This document shows, piece after piece, positions 7,273-20,893 of a stretch of 21,989 nt of DNA. The stretch is from a virus. The position numbers were made by a program, and so were the translations under genes. The notes beneath the pieces were generated by a model. That model saw nothing but the letters and a program-made list of their open reading frames with translations, did no database searches and was not told the origin of the DNA. The stretch spans positions 1 to 21,989 of the IMG/VR virus record IMGVR_UViG_3300022200_008386. One strand, 5' to 3'. Position 1 is the first letter of the stretch. Each line of letters starts with the position of its first letter.

Positions 7273-8316
7273 ATGAGTACTACATTAGTTACAGGAATTT
7301 ATTTTAGTGATAGAGAGGGAGAGTTCGGAGGACGTAGTTGGCAAGAACAGTATTACTTCTCTTCCTTACAAAACATTTACAACTTCGGCTTACCAATTGT
7401 CGTCCATTGCGATGATAGAGGTTATCACAAAGTTAAACGGTATATGGAATACCTGACCATGGTAACAGGTGAAAACAGATGGAAAATTATTAAGAGTGAA
7501 ATTGGCGATTTCAAATATAAAGATATTATCAGAAAGCATAGAGAAGCTTGCATTGAATATCAAACATGGGAAGCACAAGAACGTAAAAAAACTAATCCTG
7601 ATGAACCCGGTTTCTTTCACGCACGATGTGAAATTTTATGCCATAGGAAACTTTACTTTGTAAAAAGTGTTGCTGAAGAGAATCCATTTAATACTGAAAA
7701 CTTCTGTTGGATTGATTCAGGAATTACTCATTGGGCTTTAACACCGTTTAGTAAAGGTGGTGTTGAGATTAATAATTTCTTTGATAAGAAACATTATTGG
7801 CCTTGGAATAAGAATAACATTTATACCCCCGAAATCGGTAAAGGTTTAGATAACTTAATTACTAAACATGGTATGTTTGAATTTAAGCATAGTAACATTT
7901 GGTATAATAGTTACCATGTTAACCATCTTAAAAACTTATTAATGAAAGAGTATGGTTTTTCTCAAGAAGATGCTTCAATGAGATATCAGTTAGTAGGTGG
8001 TGTTATCGGGTTACAACCTAAAGAGTTTGATAAGTTATTTTCTTTCTATGAAAAGGGGTTAGAAACCCTTGCAGCTACCAGACCGCCTGAATCTGATTTC
8101 TTTACTGAAGAAATTATTTTAAGTGCTTATTATTTGATACGTAAACCATTTACTATTCACTTCCAAGATTGGCCACATGATGGGGAAAACGACCCCGCAT
8201 TTGTTGATTACGGGGCCGAAAATGAAGCTAGAAAAAGTATGATTCAGTTTTATAAAGTTTGGGACATATTAAAAACACATGCCCCAGAACCTACACCTGA
8301 ATATAGGTCAGCTTAA
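7273..8316 (+). CDS. HtrL/YibB (WlaTC)-like putative glycosyltransferase
   Basis: 347 residues, similar in layout to the HtrL/YibB/WlaTC family, often placed among lipopolysaccharide or capsule glycosyltransferases. The N-terminus TLVTGIYFSDREGEFG is followed by WQEQYYFSSL, then PIVVHCDD, and a central FCWIDSGITHW near 144-154, the most characteristic segment of the family (an acidic sugar-nucleotide site). Charged aromatic C-terminus; no signal peptide or membrane segment, so cytosolic. It is the only plus-strand gene in the left block: divergent from gene 47 and convergent with gene 55, its TAA overlapping gene 55's stop by 4 bp. This isolated orientation suggests an inserted accessory gene with its own promoter. 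The biochemical role is inferred from family resemblance only. Confidence 0.65.
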   Translation: MSTTLVTGIYFSDREGEFGGRSWQEQYYFSSLQNIYNFGLPIVVHCDDRGYHKVKRYMEYLTMVTGENRWKIIKSEIGDFKYKDIIRKHREACIEYQTWEAQERKKTNPDEPGFFHARCEILCHRKLYFVKSVAEENPFNTENFCWIDSGITHWALTPFSKGGVEINNFFDKKHYWPWNKNNIYTPEIGKGLDNLITKHGMFEFKHSNIWYNSYHVNHLKNLLMKEYGFSQEDASMRYQLVGGVIGLQPKEFDKLFSFYEKGLETLAATRPPESDFFTEEIILSAYYLIRKPFTIHFQDWPHDGENDPAFVDYGAENEARKSMIQFYKVWDILKTHAPEPTPEYRSA

Positions 8317-12737: not shown

Positions 12738-12947
12738 ATGTCAACGTTTAAAAACATATTTTTAAAGTTGCTTGACGAAGATGGTAATGTAGCTGGACCC
12801 GGCGGGGCTTTAGGTACATGGACATCGTCCCAATTTTCTGGTGATAATTACGCTCCAGGTGATTATAGAATGCCTAAAGTATTAGGAAGTGTTCAACGAC
12901 GTAATACTAAAAAGAAGCGTAAAAAGAAAAAGAAGAAAAATGGTTGA
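12738..12947 (+). CDS. Small Lys-rich protein with capsid-targeting-like leader
   Basis: 69 residues, first gene of the rightward late block. The N-terminus MSTFKNIFLKLLDEDGN is a short amphipathic helix ending in L-D-E before Asp, resembling the leader and cleavage site of T4 internal head proteins. A Gly/Ser-rich middle follows (GPGGALGTWTSSQF), then a DNA-binding-like tail KKKRKKKKKKNG. Predicted to be packaged in the head and to neutralise DNA charge; this is inference. The purine run encoding the tail lies directly before the next start codon (12940), which overlaps this gene's stop by 8 bp. An exact TATAAATA lies 6 nt upstream. Confidence 0.7.
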   Translation: MSTFKNIFLKLLDEDGNVAGPGGALGTWTSSQFSGDNYAPGDYRMPKVLGSVQRRNTKKKRKKKKKKNG

Positions 12948-13356
12948 TAATTTAGGGCATTGGACTTATAATGGTAAAAAAGAAGATATACCTGAGAACT
13001 TTTTCGGCTTTATCTACATTATAACCAATACTGTTACCGGCAAAAAATATATCGGTAAAAAACAGGCGCAAAAGATAGCTAAACTTCCCCCTCTTAAAGG
13101 TAAATCACGCCGCAGACATGTAGTAAAAGAAACAGATTGGAAAACATACACCTCTTCATCTGATAAGGTTAATCACGATCTAATTGAGTACGGTAAAGAT
13201 AAGTTTATGTTCGAAATAGTTAGGTTCTGTAATTCTAAATCTGAATTAGCATATTATGAAGCAAAGTTACAGTTTGATAATGATGTACTACTTAACGAGG
13301 ATAAATTCTACAACGGAATAATTAACTTAAGACTAGGTAAGATAAAAAAGAGTTGA
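12940..13356 (+). CDS. GIY-YIG family putative nuclease
   Basis: 138 residues from the ATG at 12940. An upstream ATG at 12889 would extend it through the preceding gene's Lys-rich tail in another frame and is unlikely. The GIY-YIG domain is complete: FIYIITNTVTGKKYIGKK (GIY as FIY, then YIG), the basic helix KGKSRRRH with the catalytic Arg, AYYEAKLQF with the metal-binding Glu, and a late Asn in YNGIINLRLG. Many T4-like phages carry similar small GIY-YIG proteins, some being homing endonucleases (Seg family). Here no extra DNA-binding domain is visible, so a free-standing processing or recombination nuclease is as likely as homing. It has no capsid-targeting leader. Confidence 0.75.
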   Translation: MVDNLGHWTYNGKKEDIPENFFGFIYIITNTVTGKKYIGKKQAQKIAKLPPLKGKSRRRHVVKETDWKTYTSSSDKVNHDLIEYGKDKFMFEIVRFCNSKSELAYYEAKLQFDNDVLLNEDKFYNGIINLRLGKIKKS

Positions 13357-13386
13357 ACTAGTCTGCAGACACGTTAAAATCACATT

Positions 13387-13947
13387 GTGAGATTAGATCT
13401 GCCAGAGTATAATGTTACATTAATTGATTATCAACAGATACATTTATCTTTTGAGCAGCGGTTAATAGATGAACTCCATAATCTTCAGTTACTTGACTCA
13501 CTTTACGATTTATCTAAGGATTGCAGAAAATTAATACTTCATTTTACCATTAAAGAAACGGTAGACTATTTAAATTCTTATAAAACCACTAATAAATTAC
13601 TACTTTACTTTAATAACACACAATTTTACGATAGTGAGGTGTTGAAATATATAGATGAATCCGTATATTTGAAATTAGTAACTAAGATGTTGTTAAGGAT
13701 AAGGACTATTTTACCTATTAAAGTTGTTATCTCGAGTAAGAGTTTAGAGTTTTTCAGTCATTTGTTAACTATAGATGATGGTAGAGCTAGAGGCACGTTA
13801 ATTAGAATAGTTGATACAGTTAATAAGTTTAAAGTAGAAAATTTTACATTTGAAAAGGTTAAAAAGTTTGCAATGGTAAATGAACTTAACTTTTTATCTG
13901 GTGAGTATTTTAACAATATAAAAACTAAACAGATTGCTTTTAAATAA
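13387..13947 (+). CDS. Unknown 186-aa protein (GTG start)
   Basis: I do not recognise this gene. The start is a GTG at 13387; a TGA directly overlaps upstream in another frame and no ATG is available before the conserved-looking start LPEYNVTLIDYQQIHLSF. The protein is rich in Leu, Ile and Lys, probably mostly helical, without membrane segment, cysteine motif or nucleotide-binding loop. It has no capsid-targeting-like leader, unlike its downstream neighbours. T4-like genomes have baseplate-hub genes after uvsY (25, 26, 51), and size would fit a hub or assembly factor, but I see no sequence match, so the role is open. Gap to the next start is 8 nt. Confidence 0.6.
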   Translation: MRLDLPEYNVTLIDYQQIHLSFEQRLIDELHNLQLLDSLYDLSKDCRKLILHFTIKETVDYLNSYKTTNKLLLYFNNTQFYDSEVLKYIDESVYLKLVTKMLLRIRTILPIKVVISSKSLEFFSHLLTIDDGRARGTLIRIVDTVNKFKVENFTFEKVKKFAMVNELNFLSGEYFNNIKTKQIAFK

Positions 13948-13950
13948 ATA
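13943..13950 (+). promoter_or_regulatory. Near-consensus late promoter box (AATAAATA)
   Basis: Seven of eight bases match TATAAATA and the spacing to the ATG at 13956 is exactly 5 nt, as at 20151 and 20174, which would place the transcript start on the A of the ATG. The box lies in the last codons of the preceding gene. AT-rich context lowers the certainty. Confidence 0.35.
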
Positions 13951-13955
13951 TAAAT

Positions 13956-14471
13956 ATGAAGTTCGACCAAGCCATTAAAGAAGGGTTTGCAAATTACGTT
14001 TCAGAAGACGAAGATCAGATTTCTATTGGTAGAGATGTTTTAGAATCTATCAGAGATTTGATTAATGATGACGATGTAGTTAAAATTGCAGTAGAAAAAC
14101 ATAGAGATAACCCTAATCTGTTTAAAGCTATTAACAAATTAATTTTTAAAGTAGATAGTTTACTTGCTCCCAAGAAAGAAGAGTTTCCAGAAGATGAAAT
14201 GACTTTGGGTGACCCTACTCGTAAAAATAGTTCTGTATCTGGAGTTAAAAACTTAGGTAGTAGTTACAATTTAGATGACCATGTTGAGCAAGCTGCAGCA
14301 AAGGCTAATAAATTACAAAAATTTGGTGGATCATTTGGTGTAGGAGTCGGTGCTTATGGTGCAGCTAATGCTGCTGTAAAAAGAAGAGATAAAGTTGTAG
14401 GTCTTGCTGCTAAAAAATATGATGAAGTTACTAAAAATATTGAAAATGTATTGAAAAGACAAAAACCATAA
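13956..14471 (+). CDS. Putative internal head protein with capsid-targeting-like leader
   Basis: 171 residues of unknown family. The N-terminus MKFDQAIKEGFANYVSEDED is an amphipathic helix ending in V-S-E before Asp, a possible prohead-protease site. Residues 25-70 are a charged helical region. The middle is acidic (KKEEFPEDEMTLGDP). From about 125 a Gly/Ala-rich stretch FGGSFGVGVGAYGAANAA is followed by a basic helical tail ending KRQKP. The Gly/Ala segment plus cationic tail could interact with membranes or DNA, which is only a guess. It starts a chain of closely spaced plus-strand genes (6 nt to the next). Confidence 0.6.
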   Translation: MKFDQAIKEGFANYVSEDEDQISIGRDVLESIRDLINDDDVVKIAVEKHRDNPNLFKAINKLIFKVDSLLAPKKEEFPEDEMTLGDPTRKNSSVSGVKNLGSSYNLDDHVEQAAAKANKLQKFGGSFGVGVGAYGAANAAVKRRDKVVGLAAKKYDEVTKNIENVLKRQKP

Positions 14472-14477
14472 AAAATT

Positions 14478-14843
14478 ATGAAAATTAAAACTCACAGCAA
14501 ATTTTTTAGTTTAATTGGTAACAAGTATAAAATGCTTGAAGAACAGCCTGTTGATCCAACTGCTCAAATGTCTATGCCACCTGCTGCTCCTAATCCTGCA
14601 GCAGCCGCCCCTGCAGTACCAGCTGAACCTGCCCCAGAACCTGAAGTAAAGCAGTTAACACCTGAAGGTGAAGTTGAATTGATCAGACTTATTCGTAAGG
14701 CATTAGTTTTAGAACCAACTGAAGGTACTATTCCTCCTTCTATCTTAGATGATGAAATTAATGAAGAAAATGGTCGCGAAATATTGTCTAAACTTAAACA
14801 GTTTATAAATTCTTATTCAGACGACCCTGATATAGATTATTAA
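14478..14843 (+). CDS. Pro/Ala-rich small virion-module protein with leader-like N-terminus
   Basis: 121 residues. The N-terminus MKIKTHSKFFSLIGNKYKML followed by EEQP is basic-amphipathic and contains M-L-E, a possible cleavage site near residue 21. Residues 25-60 form a disordered linker of Pro and Ala (PAAAAPAVPAEPAPEPEV). The C-terminal domain begins LTPEGEVELIRLIRKAL and ends in an acidic tail DDPDIDY. The tripartite design (targeting leader, flexible Pro/Ala spacer, small helical domain) suggests a virion or scaffold component. I cannot name the family. Confidence 0.55.
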   Translation: MKIKTHSKFFSLIGNKYKMLEEQPVDPTAQMSMPPAAPNPAAAAPAVPAEPAPEPEVKQLTPEGEVELIRLIRKALVLEPTEGTIPPSILDDEINEENGREILSKLKQFINSYSDDPDIDY

Positions 14844-14844
14844 T

Positions 14845-16410
14845 ATGAGCAAATATAGATCATTAGCAGATATATACAGCGATAACGCTTTTAAACGTGT
14901 ACCTAAATTACAAAGACAAAAAGTGATTGGTGAGGACGTTAAAATATTTTTTCAGACAGAAATTGATGATGAACCTAAAATCGTAGGTTCACTTAACGAT
15001 GAACAAGCTTCGAAGTTAAGAAGAAAAATTATTAACCAATCTGGTGGTGTAGCTTCTCTGCTTAACGACTTATTAATTAAATCTCATTGGAAAGGTTCAA
15101 ATGAAAAAGAATATATATCTAAAGTTTTAGGCCCAGTAGTTGAAGCTGTAGAATCAAATACCGATGTTGATAAGAAAAATTTAGAACAATTTATAAAAGA
15201 TAAAAGAGAGTTAACATTTTTTATTGATACTCTCGATCAAGCTGCTGAATCTGAAACCGATTTCAACATATTTGAACAAATTGAACCTCTTTTACAAGAT
15301 ATATTTATTACAGATGCCCATGATACCGTTGTTGATATTTTCCTTATTAACCCTACGTTAAATAACATAGGTACGGGTAAGGGAGAAATATTAATTTCTA
15401 TGTTTACTAATGCAGTTAAAGGCGATGTGGGTGATTTATATTTTAACGGTTATGGTGATGTAGAAGTAAAAGGGTTAAAAGGTAGACCAGGTACATCTGG
15501 TAATGCATCAAGATCGATTGAATTATTACCTAAATTACTTTATAATAAAAAAGGTTCAGACGTTCATACAGGGGAAGGTATAAGAGATAAATTTCAACAA
15601 TCAGTAGGTGTTAGAAATGAACTTTATGATTACATTAATAATAAACTTTATAATGTAATGATCAAAAAAGGCGAAAAATATATTTCTTCTTATAATGAAA
15701 TAAAAAACATTATTGATACAGAATTAGATAAATTAGATGAAAATGAAAATATAACTAAAGAATTTCTAGAAAATTTAAAAGATAATTTACATGCCGAAAT
15801 TAACTCTTTAGTAACCTTTATAACACAAAGAACTACTCTTAAAAATAAGGTTACAAATTATATTAATTCATTAAAGGACTATTTAATAGCATCAACAAAT
15901 AGAATGGATTATGTACCTAAAGTAAAAAAACGAAAAAATAAAAAATCCGGTGAAATAGAAGAAACAGGTCCTACTACAACTGATGTATTTCAAAATTTCT
16001 TTCTAAACGAATGGGGGTTAAGTATAGATGATATAATAGAAGGATTTTTACTTGCAGCTAATGAAAATAAATTTAATAAAAAAGAATTTGAAGAGGGACT
16101 AAAAGAAATATTACTTTCCGATAATAATTTAAGAAAACTTCGCAGAAATAATGACGATATATTGTTACGCGCTATTATTGGTGCAATGCAAGTTTCAATG
16201 TATAAGGAAAAAGAAGGATTTAAAGTAATACTTTTTATAAATGATAATACAGGTAATGCTTTACCTTTTAAATCTAAAGGTGATACTGTAAAAGAACGAT
16301 TTATATATACTTTTAATAAATTTCAACAATTAATGAATAAAAATTTATTAAAAATTGGGTTAAACATTGATGATAGATCTAATGGCGTACCAATATCATA
16401 TATCGGTTAA
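14845..16410 (+). CDS. PD-(D/E)XK nuclease-like protein
   Basis: 521 residues. The segment from 178 reads GKGE, then GDVGDLYFNGYGDVEVKG (193-210): the Glu of GKGE (181), Asp of GDL (197) and E-V-K (207/209) match the E...D...ExK active site of the PD-(D/E)XK nucleases, in the form seen in several phage and restriction-type enzymes. GRPG after the motif resembles the GxGGR turn that often follows. The remainder is helical and charged, unlike anything I recognise. The N-terminus SLADIYSDNAF aligns by eye with SLQELYEATLS of the 175-aa minus-strand protein but lacks the Glu, so it may be a degenerate or uncleaved targeting leader. The ligase-like gene follows after 2 nt. Confidence 0.65.
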   Translation: MSKYRSLADIYSDNAFKRVPKLQRQKVIGEDVKIFFQTEIDDEPKIVGSLNDEQASKLRRKIINQSGGVASLLNDLLIKSHWKGSNEKEYISKVLGPVVEAVESNTDVDKKNLEQFIKDKRELTFFIDTLDQAAESETDFNIFEQIEPLLQDIFITDAHDTVVDIFLINPTLNNIGTGKGEILISMFTNAVKGDVGDLYFNGYGDVEVKGLKGRPGTSGNASRSIELLPKLLYNKKGSDVHTGEGIRDKFQQSVGVRNELYDYINNKLYNVMIKKGEKYISSYNEIKNIIDTELDKLDENENITKEFLENLKDNLHAEINSLVTFITQRTTLKNKVTNYINSLKDYLIASTNRMDYVPKVKKRKNKKSGEIEETGPTTTDVFQNFFLNEWGLSIDDIIEGFLLAANENKFNKKEFEEGLKEILLSDNNLRKLRRNNDDILLRAIIGAMQVSMYKEKEGFKVILFINDNTGNALPFKSKGDTVKERFIYTFNKFQQLMNKNLLKIGLNIDDRSNGVPISYIG

Positions 16411-16412
16411 TT

Positions 16413-17729
16413 ATGAAATTTGAACAAGAACTAATTTTTGAAGCATACAACAACGCTGTACTAAATGAAGGTGGCGCTGCTGGTCATATGTATCACCCTT
16501 TTGACTTACCTGAAGTTAACTCTATCGATGATTTAGTTAATGTATTATATAATAGCGTTGATATACTCAACAAAGGTACCGCTACAGTTAAACTGGATGG
16601 GGTTAATTTAAGTTTAAAAGTAGTTAATGATGAACGTAACGAAGCATTTAAAAAACAATTTGCTTTAGATAGAGGTTCTCAAAAAGTAGAAGATGTACAT
16701 GGTATTACATTAGATGGTTTAACAACTCGTTTTCCTGAAGGTCATGGATTAATTGATAAAGGTAAAACAATTCTTACAATTATGGATAAATCTATTCCAC
16801 TTATTAAAAATGATTTAATCAAATTAGGTATGTGGAATGATCCAACAAAATTTTTAAACACCGAATACATTGACGGTCAAGAAAATGTTATTGATTATGG
16901 TGATAAAAAAATAATAGCTTTTCATAGTGTTAATCAGTTTGTTGAAAAACGAAATAGAAAAGGTGAATTAACAAGACCCGGGTTAAAACCCAAACCTTAT
17001 GTTAAAGAGACATCAAGAGTTATTAATTATGATAACGAAGCTTTAAACAGTTTAAGAGAAAAAGTTAATACAATAGCTAATCAGTATGGGTTTGAGGTTA
17101 TTACCGGTATATATGTTACTAAAAAAGGTGTACCTAATTTTGATTCAGTTTTAAATAAACCATTTACAGTACAGTTTGATGATAAAGAAAAGGTAACCAA
17201 ACCTCTTAAAACTTGGATTAAAGAAGTTGGGAAAGGTATACCTAAAAAAATTAGAGTTAAAACTTTAGACGGAAAAGATAGAGGCGCTGTTAGTAAAGAT
17301 GTTTATCTTACTGTACTTAATGGTACACCTTTAGATAGTGTATTTAAAACAGAAGATATTAATACTGCAGTTGCAGGGGCTTTAACTTATCATATTACTA
17401 AGGAATTAGGTCAAGAAATTTTACGTAATTATACTACTGATAATTACGGTGATACCGATAAACACGAAGGTATAGTATTAACTGATACCTCATATGGTAA
17501 AGATAACTTAGGTAACCCTAATTCTATTAAAATTACAGGTGATTTTATTCTTAGTGGTATGGGTGGTAAATTAGCTACAAATAGACCTAAAGTGTCTGAT
17601 GAAGAAGATCAATCTGCACCAGCTGCTAACTACGGTAATGGTGGTATGGATTTTTCTTCTTATTTTACAAATCCAAGAAGTGAAACCGACCCCGGTGGAT
17701 CTGGATTTAAAGCCAAATCAGTTAAGTAA
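16413..17729 (+). CDS. Covalent nucleotidyltransferase (DNA/RNA ligase-like) with capsid-targeting-like leader
   Basis: 438 residues. The superfamily motifs occur in order: motif I TVKLDGVNLSLK with the AMP/GMP-accepting Lys at 60, NTEYIDG near 149-155 (motif III Glu 151), KIIAFHSV (IIIa) near 166, HEGIVLTD (motif IV, EGIV 352-355), and SIKITGDF with Lys 373 (motif V). An AGHMYHPFD segment (24-31) precedes motif I. No OB-fold or zinc finger is evident; the C-terminus is Gly/Ser-rich and basic. The N-terminus MKFEQELIFEAYN ends in I-F-E before Ala, a fully typical prohead-protease site, so the enzyme may be packaged. It follows the PD-(D/E)XK gene by 2 nt. Whether it seals DNA or RNA is unknown. 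Confidence 0.7.
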   Translation: MKFEQELIFEAYNNAVLNEGGAAGHMYHPFDLPEVNSIDDLVNVLYNSVDILNKGTATVKLDGVNLSLKVVNDERNEAFKKQFALDRGSQKVEDVHGITLDGLTTRFPEGHGLIDKGKTILTIMDKSIPLIKNDLIKLGMWNDPTKFLNTEYIDGQENVIDYGDKKIIAFHSVNQFVEKRNRKGELTRPGLKPKPYVKETSRVINYDNEALNSLREKVNTIANQYGFEVITGIYVTKKGVPNFDSVLNKPFTVQFDDKEKVTKPLKTWIKEVGKGIPKKIRVKTLDGKDRGAVSKDVYLTVLNGTPLDSVFKTEDINTAVAGALTYHITKELGQEILRNYTTDNYGDTDKHEGIVLTDTSYGKDNLGNPNSIKITGDFILSGMGGKLATNRPKVSDEEDQSAPAANYGNGGMDFSSYFTNPRSETDPGGSGFKAKSVK

Positions 17730-17733
17730 CTTT

Positions 17734-19029
17734 ATGTCCTTCTTAAAATATCACCAACGTTTAGGTGATTACATTCCTATACCAGATTGTACTATATTTA
17801 ATTACGATCTTATTTACTTCCTTAATGAAGATGGCCCTTTCTTATGGGAAAATAGTATGGGTGGTTATATATCACCTGATCTAGGAGGTAAAATAGTAGA
17901 GATAGATTGGGACTTACTTAAAAAAGATCTTTTAGAACAAAAACCTGGTATTTTAATTATACCAGAATGTTTGGTTAATAACTACCATAAACAATGTAAG
18001 TTAAAAATTGAAAATGATATCAGAGAATTAGGTTACTATGATGATCGTTTAATTGTTTATCTTCAGAAAGAGCAAAACTTTTATTACGGTGAAATTCACG
18101 ATAAACCAGATTGGTTCTACGTTGATGAATTAGATTATAAAAACATATGTTATCATTCTATTGGTTATAACACACCACCTAAAGAAGAAGATGAAACCCG
18201 ATTTAAAAACTTTAGATTTTGTAAACAAGGGTTTATGTGTGAATCTTTTTTTAAACTTTATAGTATTAAAGATACTTCACCAGACGAACTTTGGGAACAG
18301 AGACTTAAAACAAATTTTGATCCCGGTAAATTAATATGGTACGGTAATTTATATACAAGTATTAGAAATAATATAACTGGAGCTATAAAAGATAGTACTA
18401 AAGTACATTATAAAGATGTGGTTTATGGTAATGAAAGTTTAACTGATTTAGTACTTGGTGAAAAAGGTATCGGTATATCAATGGACGGTTTAGTATTTAA
18501 CACTATTAGAGATGCTGAATTCGGTGTTGTTGGTTTACCAAGTATTAAAGTAACAAGGGCTGATAATTATCTGATTGAACATAACAATGTTGATATGTTT
18601 GGTTGTAGGCAAATTATACAAGTACAAGATAACATTTTTACTAATGCGAATAATGAATTAATCAAAAAACAAGTTGAAGAAGGGTATGAAAGATATTTTG
18701 AATTAGATCATAATGATTATGATAAGACAATGAAAAATATAAGATATCATTTCTTCATTATTTTACTTCAAAAATTTAATAATATTGAATTTTTTGTTTT
18801 TGATATTTTGTTTGGGGATAAAATAAAGGATTTTGTTGATAATTTAGATATAAAAGTGGATTATAGTATATTTGAAAAAGCATGTAACGTAGATCCTTCA
18901 ACATATAATAAAGGAGATGTTTGTTTGTTACCTTATATGGAAAATCTATTGACTAAATTTAGAGAGTATTTTAAACTATGTTATATAGATTGGTATAAAA
19001 CATTAAATAATAAAAATGACAGCATTTAA
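17734..19029 (+). CDS. Putative GT-B-like glycosyltransferase (low certainty)
   Basis: 431 residues from the ATG at 17734; an earlier ATG at 17599 lies inside the ligase-like gene and is not the start. The most informative segment, KGIGISMDGLVFNTIRDAEF followed by GVVGLPSIKV, resembles the donor-binding C-terminal half of GT-B enzymes (Gly-rich loop, then an acidic helix, then Gly-Val-Pro strand). KLIWYGNLYTSIRNNI upstream resembles the first strand and loop of that domain. The N-terminal 250 residues are unfamiliar and aromatic. No leader resembling a capsid-targeting sequence is seen. It ends inside the next gene by a 14-bp overlap. If real, it is a sugar enzyme inside the virion module. 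Confidence 0.5.
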   Translation: MSFLKYHQRLGDYIPIPDCTIFNYDLIYFLNEDGPFLWENSMGGYISPDLGGKIVEIDWDLLKKDLLEQKPGILIIPECLVNNYHKQCKLKIENDIRELGYYDDRLIVYLQKEQNFYYGEIHDKPDWFYVDELDYKNICYHSIGYNTPPKEEDETRFKNFRFCKQGFMCESFFKLYSIKDTSPDELWEQRLKTNFDPGKLIWYGNLYTSIRNNITGAIKDSTKVHYKDVVYGNESLTDLVLGEKGIGISMDGLVFNTIRDAEFGVVGLPSIKVTRADNYLIEHNNVDMFGCRQIIQVQDNIFTNANNELIKKQVEEGYERYFELDHNDYDKTMKNIRYHFFIILLQKFNNIEFFVFDILFGDKIKDFVDNLDIKVDYSIFEKACNVDPSTYNKGDVCLLPYMENLLTKFREYFKLCYIDWYKTLNNKNDSI

Positions 19030-19627
19030 GTGGTTTTTCATCAAAGAGCAAACTGGTAGAAAGATAGTTCTTTTTCCTGGTTCATTTAAACCACCTCACC
19101 TAGGTCATTTTAAGTTAATTGAAAGCTTTAAAAACAAAGTTGGTCAAGATGGTATTGTAAATGTTATCGTAACCGATCCTTCACCCAAATCAAGAAGATA
19201 TACCCCAGGTGGTAAATATGTACCCGCAGAAGTAGCAGCTGATATTTTAAGACGTTATGTTGCTGAAATGGGGTTAAGAGGTGTTAATGTAACTACAGCT
19301 AAAAATGCAGTAGGTGAAGTTTATGACTTTGTGAGAGAGGATGCTTTACCAGGAGATCAAATTATAGTTGGTGTAGGTGGTAAAGGAAATGATAAAGCTA
19401 GATATTCAGGTATATTAAAAGGTTTACCCGCTGGTGTAACGGTTAATATAGATGTTGCCGATGTAGTTGGTGATGAATCTGGTGCATTTAGTGCTAGTAA
19501 CTTCAGAGACTTGTTAGATAACCTTTCGATCGAAAATTTGTTACCATATATACCAGAAAACCTACGAAACAATGAAAGCCTCGTAGGTTATGTATTTGAT
19601 AAATTAAGTAACTTACCTTCTGATTAG
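19016..19627 (+). CDS. HxGH-type nucleotidyltransferase with capsid-targeting-like leader
   Basis: 203 residues. LFPGSFKPPHLGHFKLIE contains the HxGH motif (28-31) of the cytidylyltransferase/adenylyltransferase superfamily (NadD, NadM/NadR, CoaD). FSASNFRDLL (158-167) matches the ISSTxxR-type motif at the C-terminal end of the active site, and QIIVGVGGKGN is the middle strand. The substrate (NMN, phosphopantetheine, glycerol-3-phosphate or others) cannot be told. The N-terminus MTAFKWFFIKEQTG adds 11 residues before the fold, ending in I-K-E, a good match to a cleaved head-targeting leader. Enzyme families of this type appear in T4-like marine phages. The stop overlaps the convergent gene by 4 bp. 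Confidence 0.75.
   Translation: MTAFKWFFIKEQTGRKIVLFPGSFKPPHLGHFKLIESFKNKVGQDGIVNVIVTDPSPKSRRYTPGGKYVPAEVAADILRRYVAEMGLRGVNVTTAKNAVGEVYDFVREDALPGDQIIVGVGGKGNDKARYSGILKGLPAGVTVNIDVADVVGDESGAFSASNFRDLLDNLSIENLLPYIPENLRNNESLVGYVFDKLSNLPSD
19559..19589 (-). terminator. Hairpin downstream of the minus-strand 175-aa gene (possible terminator)
   Basis: AACCTACGA (19559-19567) and TCGTAGGTT (19581-19589) are perfect inverted repeats of 9 bp with a 13-nt loop. On the minus strand the stem starts 34 nt after the stop codon and is followed by a run ending in TTTT, then CTGG. It lies inside the 3' end of the plus-strand nucleotidyltransferase gene. The short U run makes a weak intrinsic terminator plausible. 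Confidence 0.45.
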
Positions 19628-20151
19628 AAACGACTCATCAACATTTTAATAACTTCGTCGTTTACACCCTTTTTCTCTTCATCACCCATTTCACCTGGTG
19701 GTTGTTCATCAATATCGACTTCAACTGCTGCAGGGCCACCACAACCACCCATAGGAGCAGGAGGTACTTCATCAACTTCATGACTATGTACTTTAGCTTC
19801 TTCTTCGTACTTAAGATAATGGTAGATATCAGAAACATAATCACTTGCTTTGGTAAGTTTAGCTTGAACCCAACCTTCTAACTCATCATAATTTTTAATT
19901 AAGTCAAGTAATTTAGGAGCATATTCAGCTAATTTGTAAAGCTCTGATTTAGCCATATCAACCTCGTGATCGTCAATCTGTTCCCTTTCTTCATCTTCAG
20001 GTGTTTCAACATCTTGAACATCTATTTTGGTCATAGTAGGGCTTCCTAATCCACCTGCTGAATCTTCAGCTTGAGGACCTAACCCTACACCGTTAAGAGG
20101 TGAAAGTGTAGCTTCATAGAGTTCTTGTAAACTCTTTTCGTCTTTATTCAT
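19624..20151 (-). CDS. Acidic virion-associated protein with capsid-targeting-like leader
   Basis: 175 residues from the ATG at 20151; a longer frame from 20256 would run through the promoter and the divergent gene and is rejected. MNKDEKSLQELYEATLS ends in L-Y-E before Ala, a typical prohead-protease site. The body is acidic and low-complexity except for one conserved-looking helical block, AEYAPKLLDLIKNYDELEGW followed by VQAKLTKASDYVSDIYHYL. Blocks of this kind recur in small proteins of T4-like marine phages, from memory and unconfirmed. The C-terminus is Pro/Gly/Glu-rich (GGCGGPAAVEVD). The only minus-strand gene in the late module, it is divergent from 20174 and shares an overlapping late promoter. 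Confidence 0.65.
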   Translation of the reverse strand: MNKDEKSLQELYEATLSPLNGVGLGPQAEDSAGGLGSPTMTKIDVQDVETPEDEEREQIDDHEVDMAKSELYKLAEYAPKLLDLIKNYDELEGWVQAKLTKASDYVSDIYHYLKYEEEAKVHSHEVDEVPPAPMGGCGGPAAVEVDIDEQPPGEMGDEEKKGVNDEVIKMLMSRF

Positions 20152-20156
20152 ACTAA

Positions 20157-20164
20157 TATTTATA
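20157..20164 (-). promoter_or_regulatory. Late promoter TATAAATA for the minus-strand 175-aa gene
   Basis: On the minus strand TATAAATA is followed by TTAGT and the ATG at 20151. T4 late spacing puts the transcript start exactly on that A. It overlaps the plus-strand box at 20161-20168 by four bases, forming the palindrome TATTTATAAATA. Confidence 0.7.
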
Positions 20165-20168
20165 AATA
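20161..20168 (+). promoter_or_regulatory. Late promoter TATAAATA for the plus-strand small-protein operon
   Basis: Exact consensus followed by ATTGT and the ATG at 20174; the predicted transcript start is the A of the ATG. It drives the run of three small basic genes and probably the structural gene at 20897. Confidence 0.7.
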
Positions 20169-20173
20169 ATTGT

Positions 20174-20476
20174 ATGGATTTTGATGCATTGTGTGATTTT
20201 CTTACCGAAGACTTTGAATTGGTTAAGATTATGGAGAAAAAAGGTAGCCGTTGCACTAAAGCTACTAAACAAGCTAGCTCTTACCTTAAGAGTAAGAAAT
20301 ATATGAAGTGTGTAAAGAACCCTTCCGGTAAGGGATACAAAAGGGTCCATTACGGAGACCCTAAACGTCGCATTAAAAAGAGTAATCCTAAAAGACGTAA
20401 GAGTTTTAGAGCAAGGCACAAGTGTTCTTCAGCTAAACCTGGAACAGCAAGATATTTAAGTTGTAAGAATTGGTAA
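20174..20476 (+). CDS. Small basic Cys-containing protein with capsid-targeting-like leader
   Basis: 100 residues. MDFDALCDFLTEDFE ends in L-T-E before Asp, a good prohead-protease site. The mature part is very basic (KRVHYGDPKRRIKKSNPKRR, then KSFRARHKC) with Cys in GSRCTK, MKCVKN, RHKCSS and LSCKNW, possibly a zinc-binding or disulphide core. From memory, the block SNPKRRKSFRARHKC...YLSCKNW recurs in many phage proteins of unknown function; I cannot verify this here. First of three tandem small genes, all basic and all with leaders. Packaged DNA-binding protein is the best guess. Confidence 0.7.
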   Translation: MDFDALCDFLTEDFELVKIMEKKGSRCTKATKQASSYLKSKKYMKCVKNPSGKGYKRVHYGDPKRRIKKSNPKRRKSFRARHKCSSAKPGTARYLSCKNW

Positions 20477-20477
20477 A

Positions 20478-20639
20478 ATGAATAACTTTAATAAAAAAAT
20501 AGACGAATTACTCAATTTACTATCAGAAGATCGTTGTAAATCACGTGCTGATAAAGTATACGGTAAGAAAACATCCGCATATAAGTCAGGTGCTATAGTA
20601 AGATGCCGAAAAGGTAAAATTTGGAAGAAAAAGAAATGA
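20478..20639 (+). CDS. 53-aa basic protein with capsid-targeting-like leader
   Basis: Complete short gene: ATG at 20478, TGA at 20637-20639. MNNFNKKIDELLNLLSEDRC ends in L-S-E before Asp (cleavage would follow residue 18), leaving a mature peptide of only about 35 residues. The mature part has YGKKTSAYKSGAIVRCRKGK and ends IWKKKK, with two Cys (20 and 43). A 'SAYxSGAxVxCRK' segment is common in small phage proteins, from memory. It starts one base after the previous stop, and its stop overlaps the next ATG (ATGA). Confidence 0.7.
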   Translation: MNNFNKKIDELLNLLSEDRCKSRADKVYGKKTSAYKSGAIVRCRKGKIWKKKK

Positions 20640-20893
20640 CTTTTAAACAGTTTTACGAAGCATCAGATAATTTACATCAATGGTTTAAAAGAGGTGGTAA
20701 AGACCCTAAGACCGGTAAGAAATTCTCTGGTTGGGTAAATTGTAAAACTGGTGGTCCTTGTGGCCGTAAATCTAAAAAGTCAGGTGGTAGTTACCCTGCA
20801 TGTAGACCCACTAAAAGTGCATGCAAAAGTATTAAAGGTAAAATGTATCAAAAGAAAAGCTCTAAAAGAGTTAACTGGAAGAAAAAGAAATAG
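20636..20893 (+). CDS. 85-aa basic Cys/Gly-rich protein with capsid-targeting-like leader
   Basis: Start at 20636 (ATGA overlap); an in-frame ATG at 20621 would run through the preceding tail and is less likely. A purine-rich GGAAG lies 8 nt before this ATG, the only decent Shine-Dalgarno-like site in the late block. MTFKQFYEASDN ends in F-Y-E before Ala. The mature part begins LHQWFKRGGKDPKTGKKFSG and continues WVNCKTGGPCGRKSKKSGGS, then YPACRPTKSACKS, with four Cys (CxxxxxC and CxxxxxxC), a likely metal site, and ends VNWKKKK, nearly the same tail as the previous protein. Function unknown; packaged nucleic-acid binding is the best guess. Confidence 0.7.
   Translation: MTFKQFYEASDNLHQWFKRGGKDPKTGKKFSGWVNCKTGGPCGRKSKKSGGSYPACRPTKSACKSIKGKMYQKKSSKRVNWKKKK

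Follow-up and report, generated by a model that had tools for sequence, protein, structure and literature searches.

Exchangeable capsid-targeting-like leaders on a predicted internal head protein set of an uncultured T4-like phage

The window analysed here, a 21,989-nucleotide stretch of viral DNA (IMG/VR record IMGVR_UViG_3300022200_008386, ends classed as linear), is probably a fragment of the genome of an uncultured T4-like phage; a megablast search of the whole window against phages matched nothing. Its left block encodes T4-type replication and late-transcription proteins (gp46, gp47, gp55, a UvsW-like helicase and a UvsY-like protein), as well as glycosyltransferases and a DNA polymerase whose gene is truncated by the left end of the window. 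The right block encodes proteins that begin with a short leader ending in hydrophobic-x-Glu (Table 1), interspersed with a few genes that lack leaders and with one for a SegE-like GIY-YIG protein. These leader proteins, designated by the first position of their genes, are the subject of this analysis. An original prediction, made from the window alone, had listed ten such N-termini with their coordinates, and all ten were found in the sequence.

Table 1. Leader proteins of the right block, with predicted cleavage sites (aa, amino acids)
Protein	Gene (strand)	Length (aa)	Leader (coordinates)	Predicted cut	Body	Charge
12738	12738..12947 (+)	69	MSTFKNIFLKLLDE (12738-12779)	after E14	copy of the mature gp23 N-fist/N-arm (GNVAGPGGALG...SGDNYAPGDYRMPKVLGSVQRR) and Lys-rich tail	+11 (mature)
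13956	13956..14471 (+)	171	MKFDQAIKEGFANYVSE (13956-14006)	after E17		
14478	14478..14843 (+)	121	MKIKTHSKFFSLIGNKYKMLEE (14478-14543)	after E22 (LEE/Q)	Pro/Ala-rich, acidic	-12
14845	14845..16410 (+)	521	leader-like MSKYRSLADIYSD (14845-14883)	Asp13 replaces P1 Glu		
16413	16413..17729 (+)	438	MKFEQELIFEAYNNAVLNE (16413-16469)	after E19		
19016	19016..19627 (+)	203	MTAFKWFFIKE (19016-19048)	after E11		
20151	19624..20151 (-)	175	MNKDEKSLQELYE (20113-20151)	after E13	acidic	-24
20174	20174..20476 (+)	100	MDFDALCDFLTE (20174-20209)	after E12	very basic	+25
20478	20478..20639 (+)	53	MNNFNKKIDELLNLLSE (20478-20528)	after E17	basic DUF5872-like module	+13
20636	20636..20893 (+)	85	MTFKQFYE (20636-20659)	after E8	Cys/Lys-rich, basic	+22

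In nine of the proteins the leader is 8-22 aa long and ends in Glu (P1) preceded by a hydrophobic residue (P3), whereas 14845 has the degenerate site already noted in the original prediction. Most cut sites stand as first listed (a slash marks the predicted cut), but two were moved on the strength of conservation among relatives: 14478 is placed after E22 and not E21 because its relatives (n=29), which have leaders of variable length and junctions that are mainly E/Q but also E/D or E/A, conserve E/Q (LKE/Q, ILE/Q, LNE/Q), and 16413 after E19 and not E10 (LIFE/A) because E19 is the Glu that its relatives conserve (VLNE/GGAAGHM.HPFD, with E19/GG in 11/11), shorter relatives carrying the later site only (MKTFKNYILNE/GG). 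At these revised cuts P3 is Leu or Ile in seven of nine proteins, Val in 13956 and Phe in 20636. Phe is common at position 3-4 of the leaders (MSTF, MTAF, MTF, MKF, MDF, MNNF), while position 7 is less regular, when compared with the targeting positions 4 and 7 of T4 IPIII.

Shuffled composition predicts a triplet [LIFVMY]xE ending at residue 7-22 in 3.6 of the 14 right-block genes, whereas 12 have one (P 6e-7); in the left block it is present in 2/12 genes (4.2 expected); the strict T4 motif [LI]xE is present in 10/14 (1.8 expected, P 2e-7) and 1/12 (2.1 expected), respectively. This test is post hoc, the block having been picked once the pattern was seen, so its P values are optimistic; comparisons of leader turnover across relatives are free of that bias. 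The triplet alone was rejected as evidence, because it is also retained within the bodies of control families (SegE-like, 33/35; UvsY, 28/32). The earlier statement that neighbouring genes and the left block are without leaders holds for leaders, but not for bare triplets, which occur there by chance in conserved bodies.

For the turnover comparisons, loci (prefix L) were gathered from other viral contigs, genes were called by a simple script and orthologues were aligned. In the 20636 family (43 distinct sequences), bodies are 91% identical and leaders 20% identical, P1 is Glu in 43/43 and P3 is hydrophobic (L/F/V/I) in 43/43. Leaders of this family (MTFKQFYE, MNFDELYEYYVNE, MKFDDLVDHYLIE, MKKFISFKAFFE, MTQKEILE and others) are 8-19 residues long, a few being extended by an upstream alternative start, and are followed in nearly all relatives by the body start ASD[NS]L[HR][QK]WF. 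The 14478, 20174, 20151, 19016 and 12738 families have the same pattern: 19016 relatives begin with MKTFKEYFE/D, MIKTFKQYFLRE/Q or MKTFKQFFLGE/Q; 20174 relatives with MQFDELVKQILE/A or MTFDKLYTSLME/A, the site being present in 41/41; and 20151 relatives with LIYE/AYNKSLNE/DLGLGP or LIFE/KYKQVNE/DLGLGP. The 13956 site is retained in L006, L007 and L012 and reads YVSD in L013. Conversely, near-identical leaders stand on unrelated adjacent genes of the relative G006 (MKTFREYFE/E, MKTFKEYFE/D, MKKFKQFFAE/K). The search for leader conservation on divergent bodies that had been proposed therefore turned out positively in the relatives examined: leaders are portable and are exchanged independently of bodies. 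Judged by the enrichment and these alignments, the leaders are genuine and beyond chance, and a leader that is replaced while junction and body stay fixed is the signature of a predicted protease site behind an exchangeable signal.

A small sample of fusion proteins, taken as supporting evidence only, keeps the site at or next to domain junctions. Flavobacterium phage immuto gp084 joins 20478-like and 20636-like domains in one protein with ELLQE/DETLHKWF between them, and the ligase-like plus nucleotidyltransferase fusions L041, L056, L083 and L085 keep hydrophobic-x-Glu near the junction, for example VMLNE/FEE (L041) and KIMSE/DEE (L083) ahead of the nucleotidyltransferase domain.

Other leader families were also encountered. 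One has a match to the retropepsin-like Zn_protease family PF05618 (L007:12702-13142 and L141:11607-12047, leaders MNKTFKTIYRNYFLNE/ and MKKFKQFFAE/). Another turnover family, in G003, G004 and G006 (L117-L126, L127-L136, L137-L145), has leaders MSFKSQVNLILE/, MTFLEEVNLILE/ and MNYDNLTDLLLE/ ahead of a common body start GYKPI.LPY or QYKPI.LPY. Many proteins of Flavobacterium phage immuto (L169, NC_055915 95000-135000) carry a distinct leader dialect (MKKSQLRQIIKE/A, MENTFDLKKFLVENKLTNNSRLLEVE/G and similar).

The T4 genome encodes closely comparable leaders on the internal proteins (IPs), namely MKTYQEFIAE/A (ipII/ipIII) and MKTFKEFTSTTTPVSTITE/A (ipI), and on gp22 (MLKEQLIAE/A) and gp24 (MAKINELLRE/S), which bears out the likeness to T4 internal-protein leaders originally proposed; MKTFKEYFE/D and MKKFKQFFAE/K of relatives are nearly identical to the T4 IP leaders (MKTYQEFIAE/A and MKTFKEF...ITE/A). 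The required machinery is encoded by relatives: gp21 protease (PF03420) was found in 12/18 large relatives and in S-SM1, P-HM2, HTVC008M and immuto, and gp23 in 11/18 large relatives. Relatives' gp22 and gp23 have sites LTE/, LSE/A and CLNE/A, and their gp21 begins MSLKLNLVVE/K, as T4 gp21 begins MNEPQLLIE/T, an N-terminal site that has been discussed for self-cleavage (PMC9026906; PMC9958956).

With T4 IPI, IPII and IPIII (PMC9026906), the proteins of the window share a leader of similar look (10-19 residues in the IPs), a hydrophobic-x-Glu cut, here predicted, unrelated bodies and, in several cases, small size and basic charge. They differ in that about ten cargo candidates occupy one 8-kb block, compared with three IPs plus Alt in T4, that P3 may also be Phe or Val, and that probable enzymes and a capsid-arm mimic are among them; no body homology to the IPs was seen. 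T4 Alt is a packaged enzyme too, one that is injected once its N-terminus has been cleaved, but it is an ADP-ribosyltransferase, and the enzyme candidates of the window, for which packaging is predicted, are of nucleotidyltransferase type. In SPN3US and phiKZ, a gp21-like protease removes N-terminal propeptides from packaged proteins by cutting after x-E (PMC5694885), the type of processing predicted here, although those propeptides often exceed 100 residues. Capsid-targeting sequences (CTSs) were proposed to let T4-like phages load varied proteins (PMC9026906); among the papers in the library searched, no account of CTSs in marine T4-like phages was found.

The right block thus very probably encodes an internal head cargo set that undergoes capsid targeting and gp21-type cleavage, and nearly every in-silico prediction examined (leader turnover, likeness to T4, gp21 and gp23 in relatives, the cyanophage protein GC190) agrees with the packaged set that was originally proposed. 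The leader would bind a gp22-type prohead core, around which the gp23 shell closes; a gp21-type protease would then cut after hydrophobic-x-Glu, the leader peptides would exit, and the mature cargo would remain packaged beside the DNA and be carried with it into the next cell. Four of the ten proteins (12738, 20174, 20478 and 20636; charges +11 to +25) are basic and may bind DNA, 14478 and 20151 are acidic, and the others are near neutral; 16413 and 19016 may be enzymes that are delivered early. Core binding, cleavage, presence in this virion, ejection and the functions of the cargo are all predicted, whereas the leader module, its junction, its turnover and the protease and capsid genes of relatives are seen in sequence.

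Virion data exist for a cyanophage protein. The S-SM1 GC190 nucleotidyltransferase, which has the leader MKKFSAFLNE/A, was detected in purified virions by mass spectrometry (PMC3037559), and a leader is found on GC190 in 5/7 cyanophages (S-SM1, S-E7, S-RIM14, S-SSM4 and S-CAM7), but not in S-CAM1 or at the annotated start in Bellamy; P-HM2, which is not among these seven, lacks it as well. For Flavobacterium phage immuto, a literature search turned up no proteomics.

Several points weigh against packaging of the set. GC190 matches 19016 around the nucleotide-binding motif only, and is of the same kind but not a proven orthologue, so its detection in virions supports the protein class. Leaderless bodies exist (GC190 in P-HM2 and S-CAM1; DUF6267 in P-HM2 and S-SM1), so that those bodies are either packaged in some phages only or reach the head by another route; homologues that keep the body start and lack the leader, which the original prediction had held to count against it, do occur in some cyanophages (P-HM2, S-CAM1), while others of the family have the leader. 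P3 is often Phe or Val instead of the Leu or Ile of T4, which would require a protease less strict than that of T4. Finally, the support for this phage and its near kin comes from sequence comparison, and the window contains no head genes.

The leaderless homologues in P-HM2 and S-CAM1 and the loss of P1 Glu from 14845 would suit a mixed set, in which the small basic proteins alone are cargo and the leaders of 16413 and 19016 are relics of fusion or gene conversion on enzymes that act in the infected cell. This is unlikely, given that the enzyme leaders turn over but retain the site, that a leader-bearing nucleotidyltransferase is present in S-SM1 virions and that T4 Alt is a precedent for packaged enzymes (PMC9026906). 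Still less probable are uncut leaders that target the proteins elsewhere (membrane, polymerase or a cell-takeover complex): amphipathic helices such as these might attach to membranes or to partners, and cleavage is a prediction, but strict P1 Glu and hydrophobic P3 with body conservation from P1' are the mark of a cut site and not of a binding helix, the leaders are alike to those of T4 IPs, gp21 is found in relatives, sites are kept at or near fusion junctions, and no tool result favours another target. That the leaders are chance short acidic amphipathic N-termini of small phage proteins is hardly conceivable, for although some conserved non-cargo proteins (SegE-like, UvsY) contain the triplet, the enrichment (P ~1e-7) and, decisively, P1 and P3 conserved in 43/43 while the rest of the leader is 20% identical speak against it.

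Within the predicted cargo set, 14845 may at most be targeted without cleavage. Its relatives have QVYIQE/AAL, QVYLNE/SAN or DVYSE/NAL, and near kin DVYAN or DIYTN. An Asp at position 10 of the T4 IPIII leader prevents processing yet leaves targeting intact (PMC9026906), and by analogy 14845 may be packaged uncut. A fold search with 14845 gave no match. The 20478 module scored 0.0047 against PF19197, under the cut-off, and modules of its type are joined to other leader proteins in relatives.

Two of the leader proteins are putative enzymes. The 16413 protein has K60xD62G63 and E352GIV355 invariant in 13 sequences (KxDG motif I and EGxV motif IV), and the best Foldseek match of its model is T4 Rnl2 (RNA ligase 2; E 6e-4, template modelling score only 0.25-0.32), making it a candidate covalent nucleotidyltransferase of RNA-ligase-like type. 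The 19016 protein (PF01467, 1.4e-6; HxGH motif) is probably a nucleotidyltransferase of the NMNAT/cytidylyltransferase-like type. Cyanophages likewise have adjacent ligase-like and nucleotidyltransferase genes, T4-GC71 (DUF6267) and T4-GC190 (PMC3037559), but the DUF6267 profile does not detect 16413, and GC190 has an extra N-terminal segment. Ligase-like (16413-type or DUF6267) and nucleotidyltransferase domains occur in one polypeptide at L041:3903-5723, L085:3874-5772 and L091:7977-10700. Fusion of the domains in relatives suggests one pathway for both enzyme types; chemistry on nicotinamide adenine dinucleotide or on RNA ends is a guess.

The body of 12738 resembles part of the major capsid protein gp23. 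A hidden Markov model of the 12738 family, from which all gp23 sequences were kept out, matches gp23 of seven relatives (4e-13 to 7e-9), always directly behind the predicted gp21 cut, and the window protein matches L110 gp23 by BLAST at 2e-9, whereas 2/200 body shuffles reached even 25 bits. One further profile comparison was discarded as circular, its alignment having contained the 12738 protein. The N-fist of T4 gp23 is made up of residues 66-91, which come directly behind the cut, and binds to four adjacent subunits (PMC9958956, PMC7136217); the 12738 body aligns with this new N-terminus. The equivalence of the relatives' gp23 cut CLNE/A with T4 E65/A66 rests on where the cut lies, at the transition from pro-region to Gly-rich arm, since MAFFT puts gaps there. 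Unlike gp23, 12738 (69 aa) has no Pfam hit and consists of the N-fist/N-arm segment without the HK97-fold shell domain (PF07068), followed by the Lys-rich tail, to which some relatives append a DUF5872-like basic module. Arm copies with a Lys-rich or DUF5872-like tail are located at window 12738-12947, L020:7615-8004 and L171:11596-12300.

Arm copies carry a leader in relatives of the window and lack it in cyanophages. The leaderless P-HM2 counterpart has an arm 58% identical to that of its own gp23 (E 7e-11), and the S-SM1 counterpart, annotated as "major head protein", has a short-stretch match to its own gp23 (E 1e-4). Among nine phages, the own gp23 is the best match for 7 mimics (permutation P 1e-5, uncorrected for shared descent). 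Tentatively, then, marine T4-like phages may possess a small protein modelled on the N-fist/N-arm of the gp23 that each encodes. In this group it would be delivered by the leader and freed by the protease, and after the cut it could dock in the gp23 lattice, where its DNA-binding tail, Lys-rich or DUF5872-like, would be anchored to the shell as a histone-like tether. No description of a gp23 N-arm/N-fist mimic was found among the papers in the library searched, and tblastn with the 16413, 14845 and 12738 proteins gave no matches. The mimic offers a testable new idea of how internal proteins or DNA attach to the shell.

The system is known in kind from T4 and is extended here in number, enzyme cargo and the capsid-arm mimic. 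In T4, the few injected proteins include IPI, which inhibits a restriction enzyme, and IPIII, which is needed for infecting one E. coli strain (PMC9391042). Given these roles, the cargo sets are leading candidates as sources of first-response counter-defence and of takeover functions. Judged by the excess of N-terminal sites, a related genome would have about 18-35 such sites, a positional estimate used in place of a genome-wide regular-expression classifier, which reached ~1.2-2.2x internal background and was not used for counting leaders. The comparisons suggest that the number of proteins loaded and injected by these phages far exceeds the handful known from T4, and a cheap sequence rule, variable leader before a fixed hydrophobic-x-Glu/body junction, could make the likely injected set readable from the DNA of uncultured T4-like phages.

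Two further genes may be mentioned. Between gp47 and gp55, the opposite strand carries a YibB/HtrL-like gene (window 7273-8316), and a sulfotransferase-like gene (L007:8332-8976) sits within the cargo block of L007.

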